A stretch of 64,000 nt of DNA from positions 186,001 to 250,000 of the forward strand of contig CABYCU010000001.1 of assembly GCA_902517565.1 (NCBI GenBank), read 5' to 3'. The position numbers and the translations under genes were made by a program. Of the stretch, positions 6,613-42,311 are shown piece after piece. Position 1 is the first letter of the stretch, and each line of letters begins with the position of its first letter. This DNA is from an uncultured SAR86 cluster bacterium. Lineage in GTDB: Bacteria > Pseudomonadota > Gammaproteobacteria > Magnimaribacterales > Magnimaribacteraceae. The notes beneath the pieces are model-generated. The model was not told the origin of the DNA. It ran no database searches and was given only the letters and a program-made list of their open reading frames with translations.

Positions 6613-7294
6613 ATCAATTTCTTTTGACCTAGATGATACATTTTGGCCACTTATGCCTACCATCTTAGAGGCTGAGAAAAAATCTAGAGATTGGATAGAA
6701 AAAAATTATCCTGGTGCTCTGAACTCTCTTACCAGAGAAGTTAGCATGGAAATTCGCGACAAGCTTTTAAGAGAAGACTCGACAATAATGAATAGAATAT
6801 CTGAATTGAGATTCAAAATATTTTTAGAAGCTGGAATTCGATCCGGTTATTCTGAAAATGAATCAACATCTATGGCGGAAGAGGCTTTTCAAATTTTCTT
6901 TGTAGGTAGGAATAAAGTAAATTTTTACGATGGGGTCATAGAAACTTTAGATTTACTTAAGGAGAAATATTCTCTTGGAGTCATTACTAATGGAAATGCA
7001 GATCTCGAGATGATTGGTATTGCGCATTATTTTGATTACATCTTTTCACCTGTTGAATTAAATGCACACAAGCCGGATCCAAAAATGTTTGAAGCAGTTC
7101 TAAAGGAAACCGGACTTAAAGCTGAAGAAATATGTCACATAGGTGACCATCCAGCGAATGATGTCAAAGCGAGCTATGATTTTGGTTGCAAGCCAGTTTG
7201 GTTCAAAGAAAAAGAAGGGGATCTTGGTCTGGATATAGAGGTTCCCTATTTTAGTGACTGGAGAGAGTTACCTAAATTATTGGAAGAAATTTAG
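6602..7294 (+). CDS. HAD-superfamily hydrolase (YigB-like)
   Basis: SFDLDDTFW, GVITNGNAD, KPDPKMFE, HIGDHPANDV motifs; follows xerC. Confidence 0.88.
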   Translation: MTIKSISFDLDDTFWPLMPTILEAEKKSRDWIEKNYPGALNSLTREVSMEIRDKLLREDSTIMNRISELRFKIFLEAGIRSGYSENESTSMAEEAFQIFFVGRNKVNFYDGVIETLDLLKEKYSLGVITNGNADLEMIGIAHYFDYIFSPVELNAHKPDPKMFEAVLKETGLKAEEICHIGDHPANDVKASYDFGCKPVWFKEKEGDLGLDIEVPYFSDWRELPKLLEEI

Positions 7295-7878
7295 AGTTGA
7301 GAAAGGTACGACTCTAATCTTGTGCCGTTCATTATGAAGCTAGATTTTTGTTGAGTTGCTGCTTCTTGAACCTCTGCCATATTCACAGCGCCTCCCACTT
7401 GAATAACTCCAACCATGGCCATCATTACATGCGGATCACATTGGTAAACATATACGCCTTCTTTATCTAGGGTTACAGAAATATCCTGGCTTAACATTCC
7501 AGCCCAGCTATCTGCACCTGAAGGTATCATCCCGGCCATAGAGGCTGAGTTGTGTGATAGATCAGTTGCTTTAAAGTGGATTGTATCTCCTACCGAAACT
7601 TTAATTACCGCAGGCTCAAAAACCATGGTTCCATCCTTACCTGAATTTAACATCTTTATGGTGTGTTCTGAGCCTTCAGATAGCTCTATCTTAGGAAGAT
7701 TACTGCTGGTTGCCATTTGCATTGGTGCAGCAGCTGGAGTTGAGCCACAATCTTGACCTTCAAGACAAATTGAACCGACAGGTGCAATCCTTTTCTCTAT
7801 TGCCTTGTTAGCCTCTGAAGCACCTAAACTGAATACAAGACTGAGAGAGAGAAGTAAGAAAATTTTTGGGTTTTTCAT
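7291..7878 (-). CDS. Secreted cupredoxin (pseudoazurin/plastocyanin-like)
   Basis: Signal peptide; type-1 copper ligand pattern DLSHNS ... YVYQCDPHVMMAM. Confidence 0.85.
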   Translation of the reverse strand: MKNPKIFLLLSLSLVFSLGASEANKAIEKRIAPVGSICLEGQDCGSTPAAAPMQMATSSNLPKIELSEGSEHTIKMLNSGKDGTMVFEPAVIKVSVGDTIHFKATDLSHNSASMAGMIPSGADSWAGMLSQDISVTLDKEGVYVYQCDPHVMMAMVGVIQVGGAVNMAEVQEAATQQKSSFIMNGTRLESYLSQL

Positions 7879-31964: not shown

Positions 31965-33038
31965 ATGAAAAAAATCCATTTATTTTGGTTGTTGTTAGCA
32001 ATCTCTATCAATATCTCATCTGAATCTATGCAAGGCATGGATCATCATCAGCATAAAGGAATGGGGGATCATGCAAAACACTCTGCGAAAATGCATGGCC
32101 CAATAGGATTAATGGGTGATCATTTTCATAAAAAAGGCGAATCTATGGTCTCTATTCGCTATATGAAAATGTCGATGAATCAAAACTATATTGGTTCTAA
32201 GAAGATATCTGACTTAGAAATACTTCAATTACCCAATCCTAATGGTATGCCCAAAAATCTTAGTGTCGTGCCTCAAGACATGGATATGGATATGATTATG
32301 TTGGGTGCAATGTATGCACCAACAGATTTCGTAACTTTGATGAGTATGGCAACATTTAATTCTAAGTCTATGAACTTGAAAACCTATCAACCAATGATGG
32401 AAAGAAATGCACTTGGTGACTTCACTACAAAATCATCTGATTTATCGATATTTAATTTCTCTGCTTTATTTACAATATACGACGAAGATAAATCTAAATT
32501 TCATGCCCAGTTAGGATTGGAAAAGAATATGGGTAAGAACGATCTACAGGGTCAAGTTCTTATGCCCATGGGAAGTTTAGGTTCTATTGTTATGCCTTAC
32601 GGCATGCAAAGTGGAGATAAATCCTACTCTGTATTAAGTGCGATAACGTATACAAAAACTTATGGAAGTTGGAAGTTAGGTGGACAAATAAAATCAAAGT
32701 TAAATATTCAAAACAAAGAATGGAATTTTGGTGATGTAAGTGAGATAAATATCTGGAGTCAAAGAGACTTAAATAATATTTCCGCATGGTCCTTGAGATT
32801 AAAAATTCAAGACGTCAAATCCATAGACGGTCTTAATAAGAAAATTGAAGCTCCGGTTCAAACTGCTAATCCTTTGAATTATGGTGGAGAAACAGTAACC
32901 TTTGGAATTGGTATTAATGTTATGTTGCCGCAAGGGAGTATAGGTTTAGAAGCTTACAAACCAATTTCAAGAGATTTGAATGGCCCTCAAATGTCTATGG
33001 ATTGGGGTTTGCAGGCTGGCTATCACTTGTCTTTCTAA
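31965..33038 (+). CDS. Met/His-rich exported protein, predicted outer-membrane beta-barrel, possibly copper-related
   Basis: Signal peptide; MQGMDHHQHKGMGDHAKHSAKMHGPIGLMGDHFHKKGESMVSIRYMKMSMNQNYIGS; terminal aromatic GLQAGYHLSF typical of OM barrels. Confidence 0.65.
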   Translation: MKKIHLFWLLLAISINISSESMQGMDHHQHKGMGDHAKHSAKMHGPIGLMGDHFHKKGESMVSIRYMKMSMNQNYIGSKKISDLEILQLPNPNGMPKNLSVVPQDMDMDMIMLGAMYAPTDFVTLMSMATFNSKSMNLKTYQPMMERNALGDFTTKSSDLSIFNFSALFTIYDEDKSKFHAQLGLEKNMGKNDLQGQVLMPMGSLGSIVMPYGMQSGDKSYSVLSAITYTKTYGSWKLGGQIKSKLNIQNKEWNFGDVSEINIWSQRDLNNISAWSLRLKIQDVKSIDGLNKKIEAPVQTANPLNYGGETVTFGIGINVMLPQGSIGLEAYKPISRDLNGPQMSMDWGLQAGYHLSF

Positions 33039-35099: not shown

Positions 35100-35555
35100 T
35101 TACTTTGAGTATTCCTCGTTTAGTTCTTTAAGGGCTGCGAAATCCATTATTTGAACAACCTCCATATTTTCATCCAAAAGTTCGTAAATAGGGTCATTAT
35201 CGGTATAGGGACGCAGACTGAAATAAACAATCACATCTTCATCACCTCCACCTTCAGTATGAGCTTCGCCCGGGGTTCCTGACTTAAAAACACCCGCTGG
35301 ACGAACGCTTTTTAAATTACCATCAGGAAAATAAGTCCGTAACTCACCCTGCACTGTAAAAGTACTGTAATTTGAACAATGCCTATGCATATGAATTTTT
35401 TCATTAGCAGCAAACTTAAATAAGAGATCAACTATTTTTGCACTCTCATCTACATTCAGAAAAGATAGAGAGACGTGTTCTAAAGGATCTCCATCTGGTC
35501 CAGGAGCTGGTTTCCAATCTATAGAATTTTCATCAAATTGAATTAAATTTTGCAT
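35100..35555 (-). CDS. Cupin-domain protein (ChrR-like)
   Basis: IHMHRHCSNYSTFTVQGELRTYFPDG cupin metal-binding motif. Confidence 0.75.
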   Translation of the reverse strand: MQNLIQFDENSIDWKPAPGPDGDPLEHVSLSFLNVDESAKIVDLLFKFAANEKIHMHRHCSNYSTFTVQGELRTYFPDGNLKSVRPAGVFKSGTPGEAHTEGGGDEDVIVYFSLRPYTDNDPIYELLDENMEVVQIMDFAALKELNEEYSK

Positions 35556-35601: not shown

Positions 35602-35632
35602 AAAAAAAGGGCCAAGAATCCTTTCTTGGCCC
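35602..35632 (-). terminator. Intrinsic terminator for the TonB receptor transcript
   Basis: Perfect 10-bp stem GGGCCAAGAA/TTCTTGGCCC (35609-35618/35623-35632); on the minus strand it is followed by T7. Confidence 0.9.
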
Positions 35633-35670
35633 TCAATCCTGTAATGCCTTTGGGGATATAGCAATACATA

Positions 35671-35686
35671 CCTAACGTAAGTTAGG
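35671..35686. repeat. Short perfect inverted repeat CCTAAC-GTAA-GTTAGG
   Basis: Read directly; lies between the TonB receptor stop codon and its terminator. Confidence 0.6.
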
Positions 35687-35699
35687 CCAAAGCTATAGC

Positions 35700-37955
35700 C
35701 TAAAACTTATAGCTAAATTTGGCTCCGTAGTTTCTTCCAGCTAAAGGAACTTGCTTCTTCACAAACGAAGAATGATTCCTAGCCACTTCATCTAGCAGGT
35801 TACTACCAAATATAGAAACTTTTAACTCTCCTGCTCCATTTAGATTGAATGTTTTTGTCAATCTAGTATTTAGCATTTGATAAGAATCAGTTACTGATTC
35901 TCCCTCACCGATGTCGTCTTGTTTTTCAACATCTTTCAAGCTGAGCTTGAATTTCCAATCATTCTCAACATAAGATAAAGAGTAGATATTTCTGGATGGA
36001 TTAATCCTTGGTACATTATGTCCATCAGAAAACTCTGCATTCACATCATCTCTTCCAAAAGAAAGAGTTAAGTCACCAGATCCAAGACTGAAGGTTCTTC
36101 CAATCTCAAATTCGTAACCCCTGAACTCTGCATCTTCTTGAACATAATCAGCATGTATAAGATTTGAGTAATCATCATGGTCATCATGATCATCATCACC
36201 ATGGTCGTCCCCGTGATCGTCATCATGATCGTCGTCTCCATGCTCATCACCATGGTCGTCGTCATGATCGTCATGGTCATCAAGTTCGTCCATTAGAGTT
36301 ATGTAATTATCAACATCATTAATATAAAAACTTGCATAGGCATAGAAATCACCATTATCAAAGTTGAAAGTAATGTCGAAATTATTAGATGTTTCGCTAT
36401 TTAAATTTGGATTCCCTGTTTCGAGTCTGCCTGTTGCCATGTGTGGGCCGTTCATAAACAGCTCAATGACTGAAGGCAGCCTTTCTACACTAGAAAAACC
36501 AAAGTTTACATCTAAAGAATCACTTAGGTCTCTACCTAAGCTTAATGCAAAACTATTAGTATCGTCGTCGATACTGTAATAGTCTATATCTCCATGGTCT
36601 TCATCAGTTACGCTTCCAGTTCTATCTATTTGATCAATTCTAAAACCTGCATCAATATAAAAGTTATCTAGGTCTGCACTCATAAAGTAACCAATAGTGA
36701 ATTCCTCATTATTGGCCGGGTTCATAAATGCTTCTTCTCCTACAATAGATGAATCTTCATCAACAAAATTTAATGATATCTTTTGTATGAAATTATCATT
36801 GGAGAGATCAAATATAGCTCCATATTCGGTGGCGTCATTCGAAAATACAGTCGGAGCATGTTCCTCATGTCCTTCTTCTTCATGTTCGTCATGACCCTCT
36901 TCTTCGGCATGTGCTTCAGTTAATGTGTAATCTGTATCTCTGTAATTATAAGTAACAGAATTTACCAAGTTACCATTTAGATTATACAAACCTTTAACTG
37001 TAAGAGACTCTGAGTCAGTTGTTGAGAAAATCCTTTCTCCTTCGTGCTCGTCTCCATGATCGTCATCATCATGGTCATCTCCGTGATCATCGTCATGGTC
37101 ATCGTGCTCATCTCCATGCTCATCTCCATGCTCTCCGTGATAAGGAATTCCATATATGCTTTCTAAGTTATCAACTGAAACTCCAAAATAGCCCCAAGCT
37201 CCTGCTCTAGAAATTCCGAATTTTGTTGACTCTATTTCTAAGTCTGAGTTCTCTATATAAGACAGCTCCTCTTCTTCCTCATGCTCATCATGACCTTCAT
37301 GGTCTTCATCATGCATAACCGCACCATCAGGAATATCAAAATTTCCGAATTCACTATTTTTATAACCAAAATTCACATTGAATCCAGCAATGTTATTTTT
37401 ATAATTTAGGTGCTGAACGTCTCCATCGTTCACAGATTGTGTTTCGAGCCCAGCTATGAATTCTTGTTTGTCGTAGTTTCCTTCCGCAATGCAATTATCG
37501 ACAACATTAATTATTCCACCGATCGTTCCATTTGCGTATAACAACGAAGAGGGGCCTTTTACTATCTCAATTTGCTCAATATCATTGAGATCAATATCGT
37601 TTAAGTGGTCGACTCCTAATCCAGATACATCGCGATTAACCATTCCATTTTTAAGAATTTTTACTCTTGGTCCTGACATGCCCCTAATGATTGGCTGTCC
37701 AACCGCAGCTCCATAATCTGCTATGGATACACCTAAGTAACTATCTACAGCCTCTCCTAACGATGTTGTAGCATCATCTTCAATTTCACTACCATCTATT
37801 ACATAAAGTGGATTAATAATCCTGCTAGGATTAAGTATTGATGCCGTTACTTCAACTTCTTCTACATTTTCAGCAGATTCCGGTGAGGATTCATCAGCAT
37901 TTATTTGCGTAGTTATTAAACTCATCGCCATGAGTGCATAAAAGTAAACTTTCAT
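35700..37955 (-). CDS. TonB-dependent outer-membrane receptor with His/Asp-rich inserts (ZnuD-like or copper-receptor-like)
   Basis: Signal peptide, plug (DSYLGVSIADYGAAVGQPIIRGMSGPRVKIL...IEQIEIVKGPSSLLYANGTIGGIINVVD), C-terminal GRNYGAKFSYKF; four His/Asp/Glu-rich segments. Confidence 0.92.
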   Translation of the reverse strand: MKVYFYALMAMSLITTQINADESSPESAENVEEVEVTASILNPSRIINPLYVIDGSEIEDDATTSLGEAVDSYLGVSIADYGAAVGQPIIRGMSGPRVKILKNGMVNRDVSGLGVDHLNDIDLNDIEQIEIVKGPSSLLYANGTIGGIINVVDNCIAEGNYDKQEFIAGLETQSVNDGDVQHLNYKNNIAGFNVNFGYKNSEFGNFDIPDGAVMHDEDHEGHDEHEEEEELSYIENSDLEIESTKFGISRAGAWGYFGVSVDNLESIYGIPYHGEHGDEHGDEHDDHDDDHGDDHDDDDHGDEHEGERIFSTTDSESLTVKGLYNLNGNLVNSVTYNYRDTDYTLTEAHAEEEGHDEHEEEGHEEHAPTVFSNDATEYGAIFDLSNDNFIQKISLNFVDEDSSIVGEEAFMNPANNEEFTIGYFMSADLDNFYIDAGFRIDQIDRTGSVTDEDHGDIDYYSIDDDTNSFALSLGRDLSDSLDVNFGFSSVERLPSVIELFMNGPHMATGRLETGNPNLNSETSNNFDITFNFDNGDFYAYASFYINDVDNYITLMDELDDHDDHDDDHGDEHGDDDHDDDHGDDHGDDDHDDHDDYSNLIHADYVQEDAEFRGYEFEIGRTFSLGSGDLTLSFGRDDVNAEFSDGHNVPRINPSRNIYSLSYVENDWKFKLSLKDVEKQDDIGEGESVTDSYQMLNTRLTKTFNLNGAGELKVSIFGSNLLDEVARNHSSFVKKQVPLAGRNYGAKFSYKF
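36171..36290 (-). repeat. Low-complexity GAT/CAT-type repeat encoding DDHDDHDDDHGDEHGDDDHDDDHGDDHGDDDHDDHDD
   Basis: Direct reading of sequence and translation. Confidence 0.9.
37041..37140 (-). repeat. Low-complexity GAT/CAT-type repeat encoding HGEHGDEHGDEHDDHDDDHGDDHDDDDHGDEHEGE
   Basis: Direct reading of sequence and translation. Confidence 0.9.
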
Positions 37956-37995
37956 GTTTTCTCCTAAATTTAAATTAAAAAAGTTTTAAAAAAAT

Positions 37996-38283
37996 TTAAG
38001 AGTTGGGTGGTGCCCTCGCACTAAAGCCAGAATGAGTAGTGGATTCAACTCTAGTTTCTTGGCTATTAAAGGTTTCTTTGACTAAAGCATATTCTTCAGT
38101 TTTTTGAAGTTCAAAAGCTTTAAATGATTCATTTTCGCAAACTTGGCAATCTACAGATTCATGAATTTCAACGAGTTCATCATGATGATCCGTTTCAAAA
38201 GCATGAAAAATTGGATCAGCAGAAATGGCTACTGAGTATAAAAAACCCAGTAAAATTGCAAATTTGTGTTTGTTGATCTTCAT
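37996..38283 (-). CDS. Small secreted His/CxxC protein of unknown function (C-terminus ARAPPNS), possibly DUF2946-like
   Basis: Signal peptide (start trimmed to MKINKHKF); HAFETDHHDELVEIHESVDCQVCEN and C-terminal FSARAPPNS; located between Sco1 and the TonB receptor. Confidence 0.65.
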   Translation of the reverse strand: MKINKHKFAILLGFLYSVAISADPIFHAFETDHHDELVEIHESVDCQVCENESFKAFELQKTEEYALVKETFNSQETRVESTTHSGFSARAPPNS

Positions 38284-38302
38284 AAAAAAATGCAATATTA
38301 GT

Positions 38303-38929
38303 TTAATTTAGTAGAGAAGCAAGGGCTTTCGCTATCTTGGTGGTGTCGTGCGGAGCCCTAAAAAAACCAGCGTATTTAGCTTCAGGACTAATGAGGACTA
38401 AACTTCCCGAATGATCAACTGTGTAGTTAGGATCCGGATTATTAACAACTGGAAAGAAAGGAGCGTTGACTTGGGTTGAGAATTTATATATTTGATCGAT
38501 TTCTCCAGTGAGCCCTTTGAAATTTTCATCAAAATTATTTAAATAAACGCGCATATTTTCGGGCTTATCTCGATCGGGATCCACTGAGACAAGGAAGAAC
38601 CTTATTTTCTCTGATTTTTCACCTAAAAATTCTTTTACATCGGACATCTGTTTCATGGTCAATGGGCATATATCAGGACAATAGGTGAAACCGAAAAATA
38701 ATATATTCCATTTATCTCTAAATTGCTCCGGCAAGAAGATTTTGCTTGAATCATCTAGTAGTGTAAATTCTGCTAATTGTCTTGGTGGATCCATAAAATA
38801 TGCGCCAAGCGTCTTATATTCATCCAAAGTGAGTTCTCTAGGTGTATAAAACCTTGATAGGAATAAGGACAAGATTAGAGCCATAAAGCCCAGACAAGTT
38901 GCAACAGTTATATAAATGCCTTTATTCAT
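38303..38929 (-). CDS. SCO1/SenC copper chaperone family protein
   Basis: FFGFTYCPDICPLTMKQM, VSVDPDRDKPENM, VDHSGSLVLISPE. Confidence 0.94.
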   Translation of the reverse strand: MNKGIYITVATCLGFMALILSLFLSRFYTPRELTLDEYKTLGAYFMDPPRQLAEFTLLDDSSKIFLPEQFRDKWNILFFGFTYCPDICPLTMKQMSDVKEFLGEKSEKIRFFLVSVDPDRDKPENMRVYLNNFDENFKGLTGEIDQIYKFSTQVNAPFFPVVNNPDPNYTVDHSGSLVLISPEAKYAGFFRAPHDTTKIAKALASLLN

Positions 38930-40784: not shown

Positions 40785-41375
40785 TTATCCTATTTTTGAG
40801 TTTTGAAGAACTTTTTTGATATCTTTAAGCAACTCGCCACTCGGTAAGGTTGAGTCATAGATCAATATTCCATTTCCTAACGGATCAAACAATATGTAAG
40901 GAGAGTCTTGTATTCTTTCACTTACAGTTAACGGAACCAAATCTGAATCTATTTTTCCGATATTAAGGAGCGGATATTCTTCAACAATTCTTTCAACCGA
41001 CTCTTTAGACAATTTATTGCCATCTATATTAATTAGGTATCTAACTACCCTATCACTATCTTTAGAAAGCCTTATGTTTATTTGTCTTGAAGAATACAAT
41101 GTTCCCCAACACTTTTCTTTGCAGTCCCCAGAAACAAATTGGACGATTGACCACTTACCAGGGAACTCATCTTTTAGAGGGCCTGAATCTACATCCAACT
41201 TCAATTCAGTTAACTGAACAGGCTCGGGTAATAGGGTACCTTTGTTTACAGTCCCTTCAGGGGTATAACCGCTATAAAACATCGCCGAACTAGATATTAA
41301 AACAATAATTGGAGTTAAAAAAATTAAAGAAGCTATGATCCTTCCTGAATTTTGTTTACTTATTTTCATAATCAA
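40785..41375 (-). CDS. Cytochrome oxidase-associated transmembrane protein of unknown function
   Basis: One N-terminal TM segment; KGTLLPEPVQL...GKWSIVQFVSGDCKEKCWGTLYSSRQINIRL; located between ctaA and SURF1. Confidence 0.7.
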   Translation of the reverse strand: MIMKISKQNSGRIIASLIFLTPIIVLISSSAMFYSGYTPEGTVNKGTLLPEPVQLTELKLDVDSGPLKDEFPGKWSIVQFVSGDCKEKCWGTLYSSRQINIRLSKDSDRVVRYLINIDGNKLSKESVERIVEEYPLLNIGKIDSDLVPLTVSERIQDSPYILFDPLGNGILIYDSTLPSGELLKDIKKVLQNSKIG

Positions 41376-42070
41376 TCCTTTTTAAATCCGTAATAAAGAT
41401 AAGAACAAATTAAAACTAATGCCAATCCATACCATTGAAGCGCATATCCATAATGCCTTGAAGGCTTTAAATCTACAGGCTTCCAAATAGGTTCTAGAGC
41501 TCCTATTGAGCCAGCAGATAGTTGTATAACAGAACTGTTTATATTGAGATCTATATCCTTTTTAGCTGCCTCATAATCTATTTGCTGTACAAGTTTTGGC
41601 CAATCCAACGAATACACTTCATCAACCAGATTTAGCCCAAATCTGTTAAATGGTGAAAGTAAACCTTGTATAGAAATTTCCTTTTGCATTATCTTAATCT
41701 CATCTTGATAATTAAAGCCGTCTTTTGAGATCCATCCTCTATTAACTAAATAAAGATCATTCTCTAATGTATTAAAAGTTGTGAAAACTTCATAACCTGC
41801 TTCTTGTCTGTAAAGTCTGTTGTCTAGTAAATAAGTCTTTGATCCGAATTCTCCATAAAGATTTACGTTTCTATAAGTAAGTTTATTTTTTGCCAGGTTA
41901 GATATTTCTCTTTCATTAACAACAGGTAAAGATTTATTCTCGTAATGTTGATTTACTATATCTTTTTTTTCTAACCCTCTACTGACCTGCCAAGAACCTA
42001 GATAAATTAGAATAGGGAAAAAAAATACGAAAAACGCGGTCATAAGTTTTCCTGGATTAAATTTACTCAT
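41372..42070 (-). CDS. SURF1 family cytochrome oxidase assembly protein
   Basis: LGSWQVSRGLEKKDIV, YLVNRGWI, HYGYALQWYGLALVLICSYLYYG. Confidence 0.9.
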   Translation of the reverse strand: MSKFNPGKLMTAFFVFFFPILIYLGSWQVSRGLEKKDIVNQHYENKSLPVVNEREISNLAKNKLTYRNVNLYGEFGSKTYLLDNRLYRQEAGYEVFTTFNTLENDLYLVNRGWISKDGFNYQDEIKIMQKEISIQGLLSPFNRFGLNLVDEVYSLDWPKLVQQIDYEAAKKDIDLNINSSVIQLSAGSIGALEPIWKPVDLKPSRHYGYALQWYGLALVLICSYLYYGFKKD

Positions 42071-42089: not shown

Positions 42090-42311
42090 GTGTATACTGC
42101 TCATCCTTTCAAGATGATCAAATACTTTATAATTTTTCTAATCGTAGCTATGTTTATTAGCCTATTTAGAGGCGCCTTTTTTCTTATAAAAGATGGAGGC
42201 TCATCTAAAAGGACTGTTCACAGCTTGGGCGTCAGAGTTTCTATAGCTGTCGTTCTTTTTATAACTCTAGTTTATGGTTTTATTACTGGGCAAATTGGTC
42301 CGGGTATCTAA
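42090..42311 (+). CDS. DUF2909-like twin-TM protein
   Basis: Short two-TM protein, FRGAFFLIKDGG...RVSIAVVLFITLVYGFITGQIGP; opposite strand inside the cox locus. Confidence 0.75.
   Translation: MYTAHPFKMIKYFIIFLIVAMFISLFRGAFFLIKDGGSSKRTVHSLGVRVSIAVVLFITLVYGFITGQIGPGI

Follow-up and report, generated by a model that had tools for sequence, protein, structure and literature searches.

The small open reading frame (ORF) that precedes a TonB-dependent receptor gene in the SAR86 contig CABYCU010000001.1 is probably regulatory, and the two together probably constitute a self-regulated metal-uptake cassette whose receptor imports zinc. The window, the whole stretch of DNA that we analyzed, covers 64,000 nt of this contig (positions 186,001 to 250,000) from an uncultured SAR86 cluster bacterium, whose nearest GTDB relatives bear the same cluster name. 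The leader peptide encoded by the small ORF has an N-terminal hydrophobic signal sequence (judged by eye), a His cluster, a CxxC motif, and a C-terminal RAPP. It looks like a metal-sensing arrest peptide of the CruR/CutF type, which would most likely turn the receptor on under metal scarcity. An initial annotation of the window had read the locus as a metal-acquisition module in which a metal-type TonB receptor and a small secreted CxxC/His protein, taken to be a periplasmic chaperone, are wired to cytochrome oxidase maturation. The functional tie between the receptor and the small protein is supported, but the chaperone role and the oxidase wiring are not.

The leader peptide and the predicted hairpin at the end of its gene

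We searched 61 SAR86 genomes spanning four families, the window genome included, and compared the locus with 80 related loci from SAR86, SAR92, Porticoccaceae, Woeseiaceae, and Alphaproteobacteria, taking in many marine Gamma- and Alphaproteobacteria. An ORF ending in RAPP (71 loci) or RGPP (4 loci) lies directly upstream of the receptor in 75 of the 80. As for the other five, two contigs begin within the receptor, one leader is masked by Ns yet reads RAPP, one has QAPP, and one locus has no leader. Two motifs, RAPP and RGPP, have been found to give robust, EF-P-refractory arrest; proteomes contain few of either, with an enrichment toward the C terminus of small secreted proteins, including those encoded by upstream ORFs (uORFs) of TonB receptors (PMC12992588). 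The window leader has the RAPP-type arrest-peptide layout: the protein is small and exported, its ORF lies ahead of another gene, and the motif stands 2 residues short of the C terminus. In the window genome, which is 75% complete, this is the sole in-frame RAPP found ending a protein-sized ORF.

Conservation within the leader is concentrated in its motifs. Across 29 aligned SAR86 leaders, only the C-terminal RAPP is invariant (29/29); CxxC is nearly so, and the remainder falls to about 20% identity. Among 92 leader peptides, 83 contain CxxC and 87 have at least two His residues beyond residue 20. Counted from the first Cys of CxxC, the Arg of RAPP lies 44 to 46 residues further on in 78 of 78 leaders, across a linker of unconserved sequence, and the distance from the initiating Met to CxxC is loose (mostly 35 to 47, with a full range of 27 to 88). 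CxxC would sit about 46 to 48 residues away from the P-site, in the region of the tunnel exit or the translocon. The initial annotation suggested checking the small protein against DUF2946; that model finds no match in the window leader or in any of the 29 members at an E value of 0.1, and membership in the family is rejected.

The receptor Shine-Dalgarno (SD) sequence and the end of the leader ORF are predicted to base-pair with each other, and compensating changes preserve the pairing. The predicted window hairpin has an 11-bp stem with a minimum free energy of -13.4 kcal/mol (z score of -2.6; 4 of 200 shuffles equally good). Related loci form like folds from different sequences, with z scores of -4 to -5.4 in four examples, and the mean z score over 98 loci is -3.0. 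Simple shuffles are a weak test here because the RAPP codons are C-rich and the genomes A+T-rich, and we therefore added a comparison of matched and permuted arms together with shifted controls. Each locus's own pair of arms was compared with mismatched pairs from other loci over 2000 permutations. Matched arms pair at -11.4 kcal/mol versus -8.8 kcal/mol for permuted arms, with 0 of 2000 permutations as stable; 17 nonredundant loci give -11.6 versus -8.8 kcal/mol, again 0/2000. The shifted controls are flat, as segments moved into either gene show no signal. In the model, opening the SD sequence costs 2.3 kcal/mol on average with a ribosome at RAPP versus 6.6 kcal/mol for the free RNA (1.0 versus 7.5 kcal/mol in the window). 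The leader locus thus carries a predicted, covarying hairpin in the position of the CutF-type stem-loop that shields a ribosome-binding site (RBS).

RAPP leaders also occur ahead of other genes. In three loci from other gammaproteobacteria (L091, L092, and L100; CxxC spacing of 47 to 49 where measured), they precede a different family of outer membrane proteins. The window itself encodes a Met/His-rich outer membrane-type protein without a Pfam match right behind typA (31965-33038, plus strand), and another RAPP leader ORF stands ahead of its homologue in locus L102 (33% identity, 6e-51).

The receptor, its metal, and its neighbors

The receptor is ZnuD-like in family model, PDB sequence comparison, and fold prediction alike, which points to zinc and agrees with the earlier placement of the protein among metal-type receptors of the ZnuD or OprC kind. 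ZnuD is the first NCBIfam model (220.7 bits; heme receptors, 95; TonB-copper, 45) and the first hit of a PDB sequence search (112.7 bits; profile, 207.6; OprC far lower). A fold search with the AlphaFold model (predicted local distance difference test score of 74.9, predicted template modelling score of 0.77) returns four ZnuD chains as the best matches (E values of 7e-38 to 4e-35), followed by OprC (1e-26). We use the label ZnuD-like rather than ZnuD because the curated NCBIfam cut-off is not reached (220.7 versus 950 bits; NF038289), though ZnuD is the best model by far. Membership in the OprC family is not supported, with 45 bits for TIGR01778 against a cut-off of 472, and the receptor alignments contain no conserved Cys that would support the CxxxM-HxM copper site of OprC (PMC8610252).

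The zinc ligands of ZnuD are Asp99, His100, Glu340, and His499 (PMC4557270). Asp99, His100, and His499 align with Asp116, His117, and His505 of the receptor, taking an offset of 14 between PDB-chain and published numbering that is our own reading of the alignment. These three residues are invariant in 26 of 26 and in 36 of 36 aligned receptors. The receptor thus shares with Neisseria meningitidis ZnuD the overall fold, the D-H and H zinc ligands, and extracellular loops rich in His and Asp, with about 20% of residues identical in the structural alignment. Unlike ZnuD, it is preceded by a RAPP leader ORF and belongs to an order in which no ZnuA was found.

Zinc homeostasis genes point the same way. 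ZnuA (PF01297) and ZIP (PF02535) have no match in any of the 61 SAR86 genomes at the thresholds used, with a positive E. coli control. Most of these genomes encode a single FUR-family protein, and the one typed is Fur; no Zur match occurs in most of the order, and only genus g16 encodes another full-length member of the family, identified as Zur by its top-scoring model and its PDB hit. One g16 genome (G059) has Zur, a leader, and an 11/12 Zur box right before that leader; another (G056) has Zur and a perfect box, TGTTATGTTATAACA, right before the receptor and no leader ORF. With a pattern derived from literature Zur sites (PMC4176598), only 3 perfect matches occur in 853,729 positions, all at leader or receptor promoters (G056, L141, and L163, the last from Woeseiaceae). 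At a loose threshold of 10/12, there is no enrichment over shuffles (8/120 versus 5.8%), so only matches of 11 or 12 positions near the start are informative. Because the receptor carries a Zur operator where Zur exists, the boxes argue for zinc, though they fall short of proving that the leader itself senses it. Of the copper or zinc importer first proposed, zinc is therefore the favored part, and copper the less favored.

Two further gene families are found near the receptor. A MerC-family membrane protein, a candidate inner membrane zinc importer, occurs in 44 of the 61 SAR86 genomes and lies directly behind the receptor in G044, G053, and G055. In genus g13, the receptor is followed by a CobW/COG0523 GTPase (L067:8347-9552 and L068), from a family that includes Zur-regulated zinc metallochaperones.

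The leader ORF and the receptor are the conserved unit, of which the oxidase genes are not part. The gene order ctaB-Sco1-leader-receptor recurs in 16 of 16 genomes of the window's genus (g1) and 5 of 5 of genus g4 with a readable locus, an adjacency that exceeds chance. The pair is unlinked from Sco1 in genera g3, g5, and g7 of the window's own family and in families f2, f3, and f4. Wherever both were located in the other genera and families, Sco1 lies at a different place, and the pair comes after an alcohol dehydrogenase gene of the zinc type or the iron type or after unrelated genes. The leader-to-receptor distance is 36 to 54 nt across SAR86. Within family f2, the gene before the leader at one locus is an iron-type alcohol dehydrogenase in L057 and L058 and zinc-type-looking in L059 to L062. 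The expected recurrence of the adjacency thus holds within two genera and fails in other genera and families. We reject oxidase wiring as a general feature, as relatives carry the pair unlinked from Sco1; that the oxidase assembly genes lie alongside is an accident of position in some lineages.

Several observations weigh against a zinc-sensing leader. The g16 Zur genes score under the NCBIfam cut-off, the Glu340 region of ZnuD is left unaligned by HMMER (Glu347 of the receptor is invariant but a candidate only), and the window genome is incomplete. The single-sequence shuffle test of SD accessibility gives only a moderate result, with 17 of 45 SAR86 genomes passing at 5%. CxxC is absent from 9 of the 92 leaders, one of them a truncated read. 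Locus L181 is the one without a leader, and the L137 leader has QAPP in place of RAPP, with CxxC and the pre-receptor region retained; the latter is a natural test of the motif. Finally, the related CruR is copper-responsive (PMC9426467), and Sco1 and copper-oxidase genes lie beside the receptor in the window's genus.

The last two points suggest an alternative in which the switch is the same and the metal is copper, with a CruR-like sensor in charge of an importer that supplies copper to cytochrome oxidase. CruR/DUF2946 leaders do sense copper via CXXC ahead of OprC-type receptors (PMC9426467), and Sco1 adjoins the pair in g1 and g4. The receptor, however, scores far higher with ZnuD than with TonB-copper models and lacks a conserved Cys, Zur boxes stand at the promoter in the Zur-bearing genus and in other lineages, and the Sco1 linkage is missing elsewhere. 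Receptor family, ligands, and Zur boxes weaken this alternative, and we consider it unlikely.

A secreted metallochaperone that passes metal from the receptor to Sco1 and the oxidase, perhaps in a dual role, would account for the signal sequence, His cluster, and CxxC as well as for the Sco1 adjacency in g1 and g4. It would not be expected to keep a terminal RAPP invariant while the body drops to about 20% identity, to lose CxxC in nine leaders, or to have a gene end that pairs and covaries with the receptor SD sequence, and the Sco1 linkage is lacking in other genera and families. Most likely the small protein does not act as a chaperone, because its sole near-universal feature is the C-terminal arrest motif and the end of its gene forms a covarying hairpin over the receptor RBS; we regard the metallochaperone explanation as improbable. 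A SecM/ApdP-type secretion monitor that stalls on slow export without sensing metal, whose layout of RAPP plus signal sequence the leader shares (PMC10951233), is more improbable still, given that known monitors regulate sec/yidC genes, whereas the gene downstream here is a metal receptor and no Sec component, and the His stretch and fixed-spaced CxxC are retained.

The proposed switch and known arrest peptides

In the zinc-sensing switch that we propose, a ribosome translating the leader when zinc is scarce would stall at RAPP, with the third residue in the P-site and the fourth, Pro, in the A-site. The stalled ribosome would occupy the 5' hairpin arm, freeing the SD sequence and allowing translation of the receptor, which would import zinc in the manner of ZnuD. 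Zinc bound by the emerging chain via His and Cys residues would relieve the stall through folding or pulling, the hairpin would form again, and receptor synthesis would drop. The sequences themselves show the gene order, the motif and its spacing, the covarying SD hairpin, the ZnuD-like receptor with three of the ligands, and the Zur boxes; that the ribosome stalls, that metal releases it, that the leader binds zinc, and in which direction regulation runs are inferred. Because control would be translational, the cassette could do without a dedicated promoter or repressor and be carried by any transcript, a freedom that would account for Sco1 lying upstream in some SAR86 genera and other genes in the rest. 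We lean, by a narrow balance, toward an arrest peptide that reads zinc directly, unmasks the receptor RBS, and replaces Zur across an order without detectable Zur (bar one genus), ZnuA, or ZIP; at least one lineage has Zur and its box instead of the leader.

CruR of Bordetella pertussis (Bp2923, DUF2946) lies upstream of the TonB receptor BfrG. Its control depends on RAPP and CXXC, which are separated by 45 residues; mutants show that both motifs and their spacing matter, and CruR senses without its signal peptide (PMC9426467). Like the SAR86 leader, CruR is a small exported uORF product with CXXC and a C-terminal RAPP at fixed spacing, encoded directly before a TonB-receptor gene, and its receptor is produced under metal scarcity, as is proposed for SAR86. 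The C-to-R distance differs, at 44 to 46 (40 to 42 intervening residues) in the leaders compared here and 49 in CruR, which places the leader outside the CruR pattern of 45 intervening residues, give or take one or two. Where CruR has a 162-nt Rho-dependent region before its receptor gene, the SAR86 gap is about 40 nt long and comes with an SD-masking hairpin. The SAR86 leader also lacks a DUF2946 match, its receptor is ZnuD-like, and the metal is probably zinc. We file the leader as a separate family of the CruR/CutF kind because of the missing DUF2946 match and the shorter spacing.

CutF of Rhodobacter capsulatus, encoded upstream of the multicopper oxidase gene cutO, opens an RBS stem-loop and senses in the periplasm (PMC9973294). 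It too is a nascent exported peptide with a metal motif and a C-terminal Pro motif, and its stem-loop, which shields the downstream RBS, is opened by a slowed ribosome, the arrangement predicted in SAR86. The leader also falls within the published CutF-like rule (fewer than 150 aa, signal peptide, PP in the last 15 residues, and a same-strand gene no more than 1000 nt downstream; PMC9973294). Whereas CutF turns an oxidase on when copper is present, the SAR86 uptake receptor is predicted to be on at low metal, and the motif (RAPP) and target differ. ApdA, ApdP, and SecM share a RAPP (or RAGP) stall motif near the C terminus of an exported peptide, and SecM exposes a masked RBS by the logic proposed for SAR86 (PMC10951233, PMC9973294). 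These peptides monitor export and regulate secDF/secA, whereas the SAR86 leader has metal-binding-type residues and precedes a metal receptor. Arrest structures are available for RAPP-type peptides (PMC10951233).

Arrest-peptide control of a TonB receptor is already known from CruR (PMC9426467), and a bulk catalogue of RAPP uORFs ahead of TonB receptors exists (PMC12992588). We found no report of a zinc-responsive arrest peptide, only of copper-responsive ones (CruR and CutF), in a literature search that left subscription journals and preprints largely outside; Roy et al. point out that neither copper nor zinc has a known riboswitch. The leader family yields sharp predictions testable by a standard cell-free assay and suggests a way in which SAR86, among the most abundant groups of the surface ocean, may control zinc uptake without Zur. 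For small "secreted CxxC" genes ahead of receptors, a switch should be considered before a chaperone.

Locus layout and neighboring genes

The genes on the minus strand run in the order SURF1, PA0111-family protein, ctaA, ctaB, Sco1, the 95-aa ORF, receptor, and terminator (Table 1). The initial annotation described this run as one co-directional block closed by a strong terminator, and the ORF coordinates agree with it in gene positions and spacing, with 19 nt from the Sco1 stop to the leader ATG and 40 nt from the leader stop to the receptor ATG. An alternative TTG start of the leader lies at 38295. A promoter and a terminator splitting Sco1 from the small gene, a possibility that the annotation had raised, were looked for and not seen: a sequence scan finds no terminator between Sco1 and the leader ORF, and a promoter scan, which is weak evidence, finds no promoter-like site within the 19-nt gap and only weak matches inside genes.

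Table 1. Window coordinates of the leader-receptor locus and adjoining genes
Feature	Position	Strand	Basis
SURF1	41372-42070	-	
PA0111-family redox protein	40785-41375	-	
Sco1 (SCO1/SenC), end gene of the cytochrome-oxidase assembly run	38303-38929	-	family model match
Leader ORF (uORF) for a Sec-type exported peptide of 95 aa, a candidate arrest peptide that senses metal	37996-38283	-	
His-containing stretch (H27, H33, H34, H41), probable metal ligands	38161-38205	-	sequence
CQVC (CxxC, residues 46-49)	38137-38148	-	sequence
RAPP codons (residues 90-93), predicted stall site	38005-38016	-	
Hairpin 5' arm, CUCUUAAAUUU, final codons and stop of the leader ORF	37992-38002	-	folding, covariation
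Hairpin 3' arm, AAAUUUAGGAG, includes receptor SD AGGAG (37961-37965)	37961-37971	-	folding
ZnuD-like TonB-dependent outer membrane receptor, 751 aa	35700-37955	-	Pfam Plug and TonB_dep_Rec
Intrinsic terminator ending the unit	35607-35634	-	12-bp stem and T-run

Directly beyond the terminator, a cupin-like protein is encoded at 35100-35555 (minus strand), and it stays beside the receptor in several genomes of the window's genus. Inside the oxidase cluster, a DUF2909 gene (42090-42311, plus strand) lies between coxC and SURF1 on the opposite strand. The window also encodes a copper protein of the plastocyanin/azurin type at 7291-7878 (minus strand).

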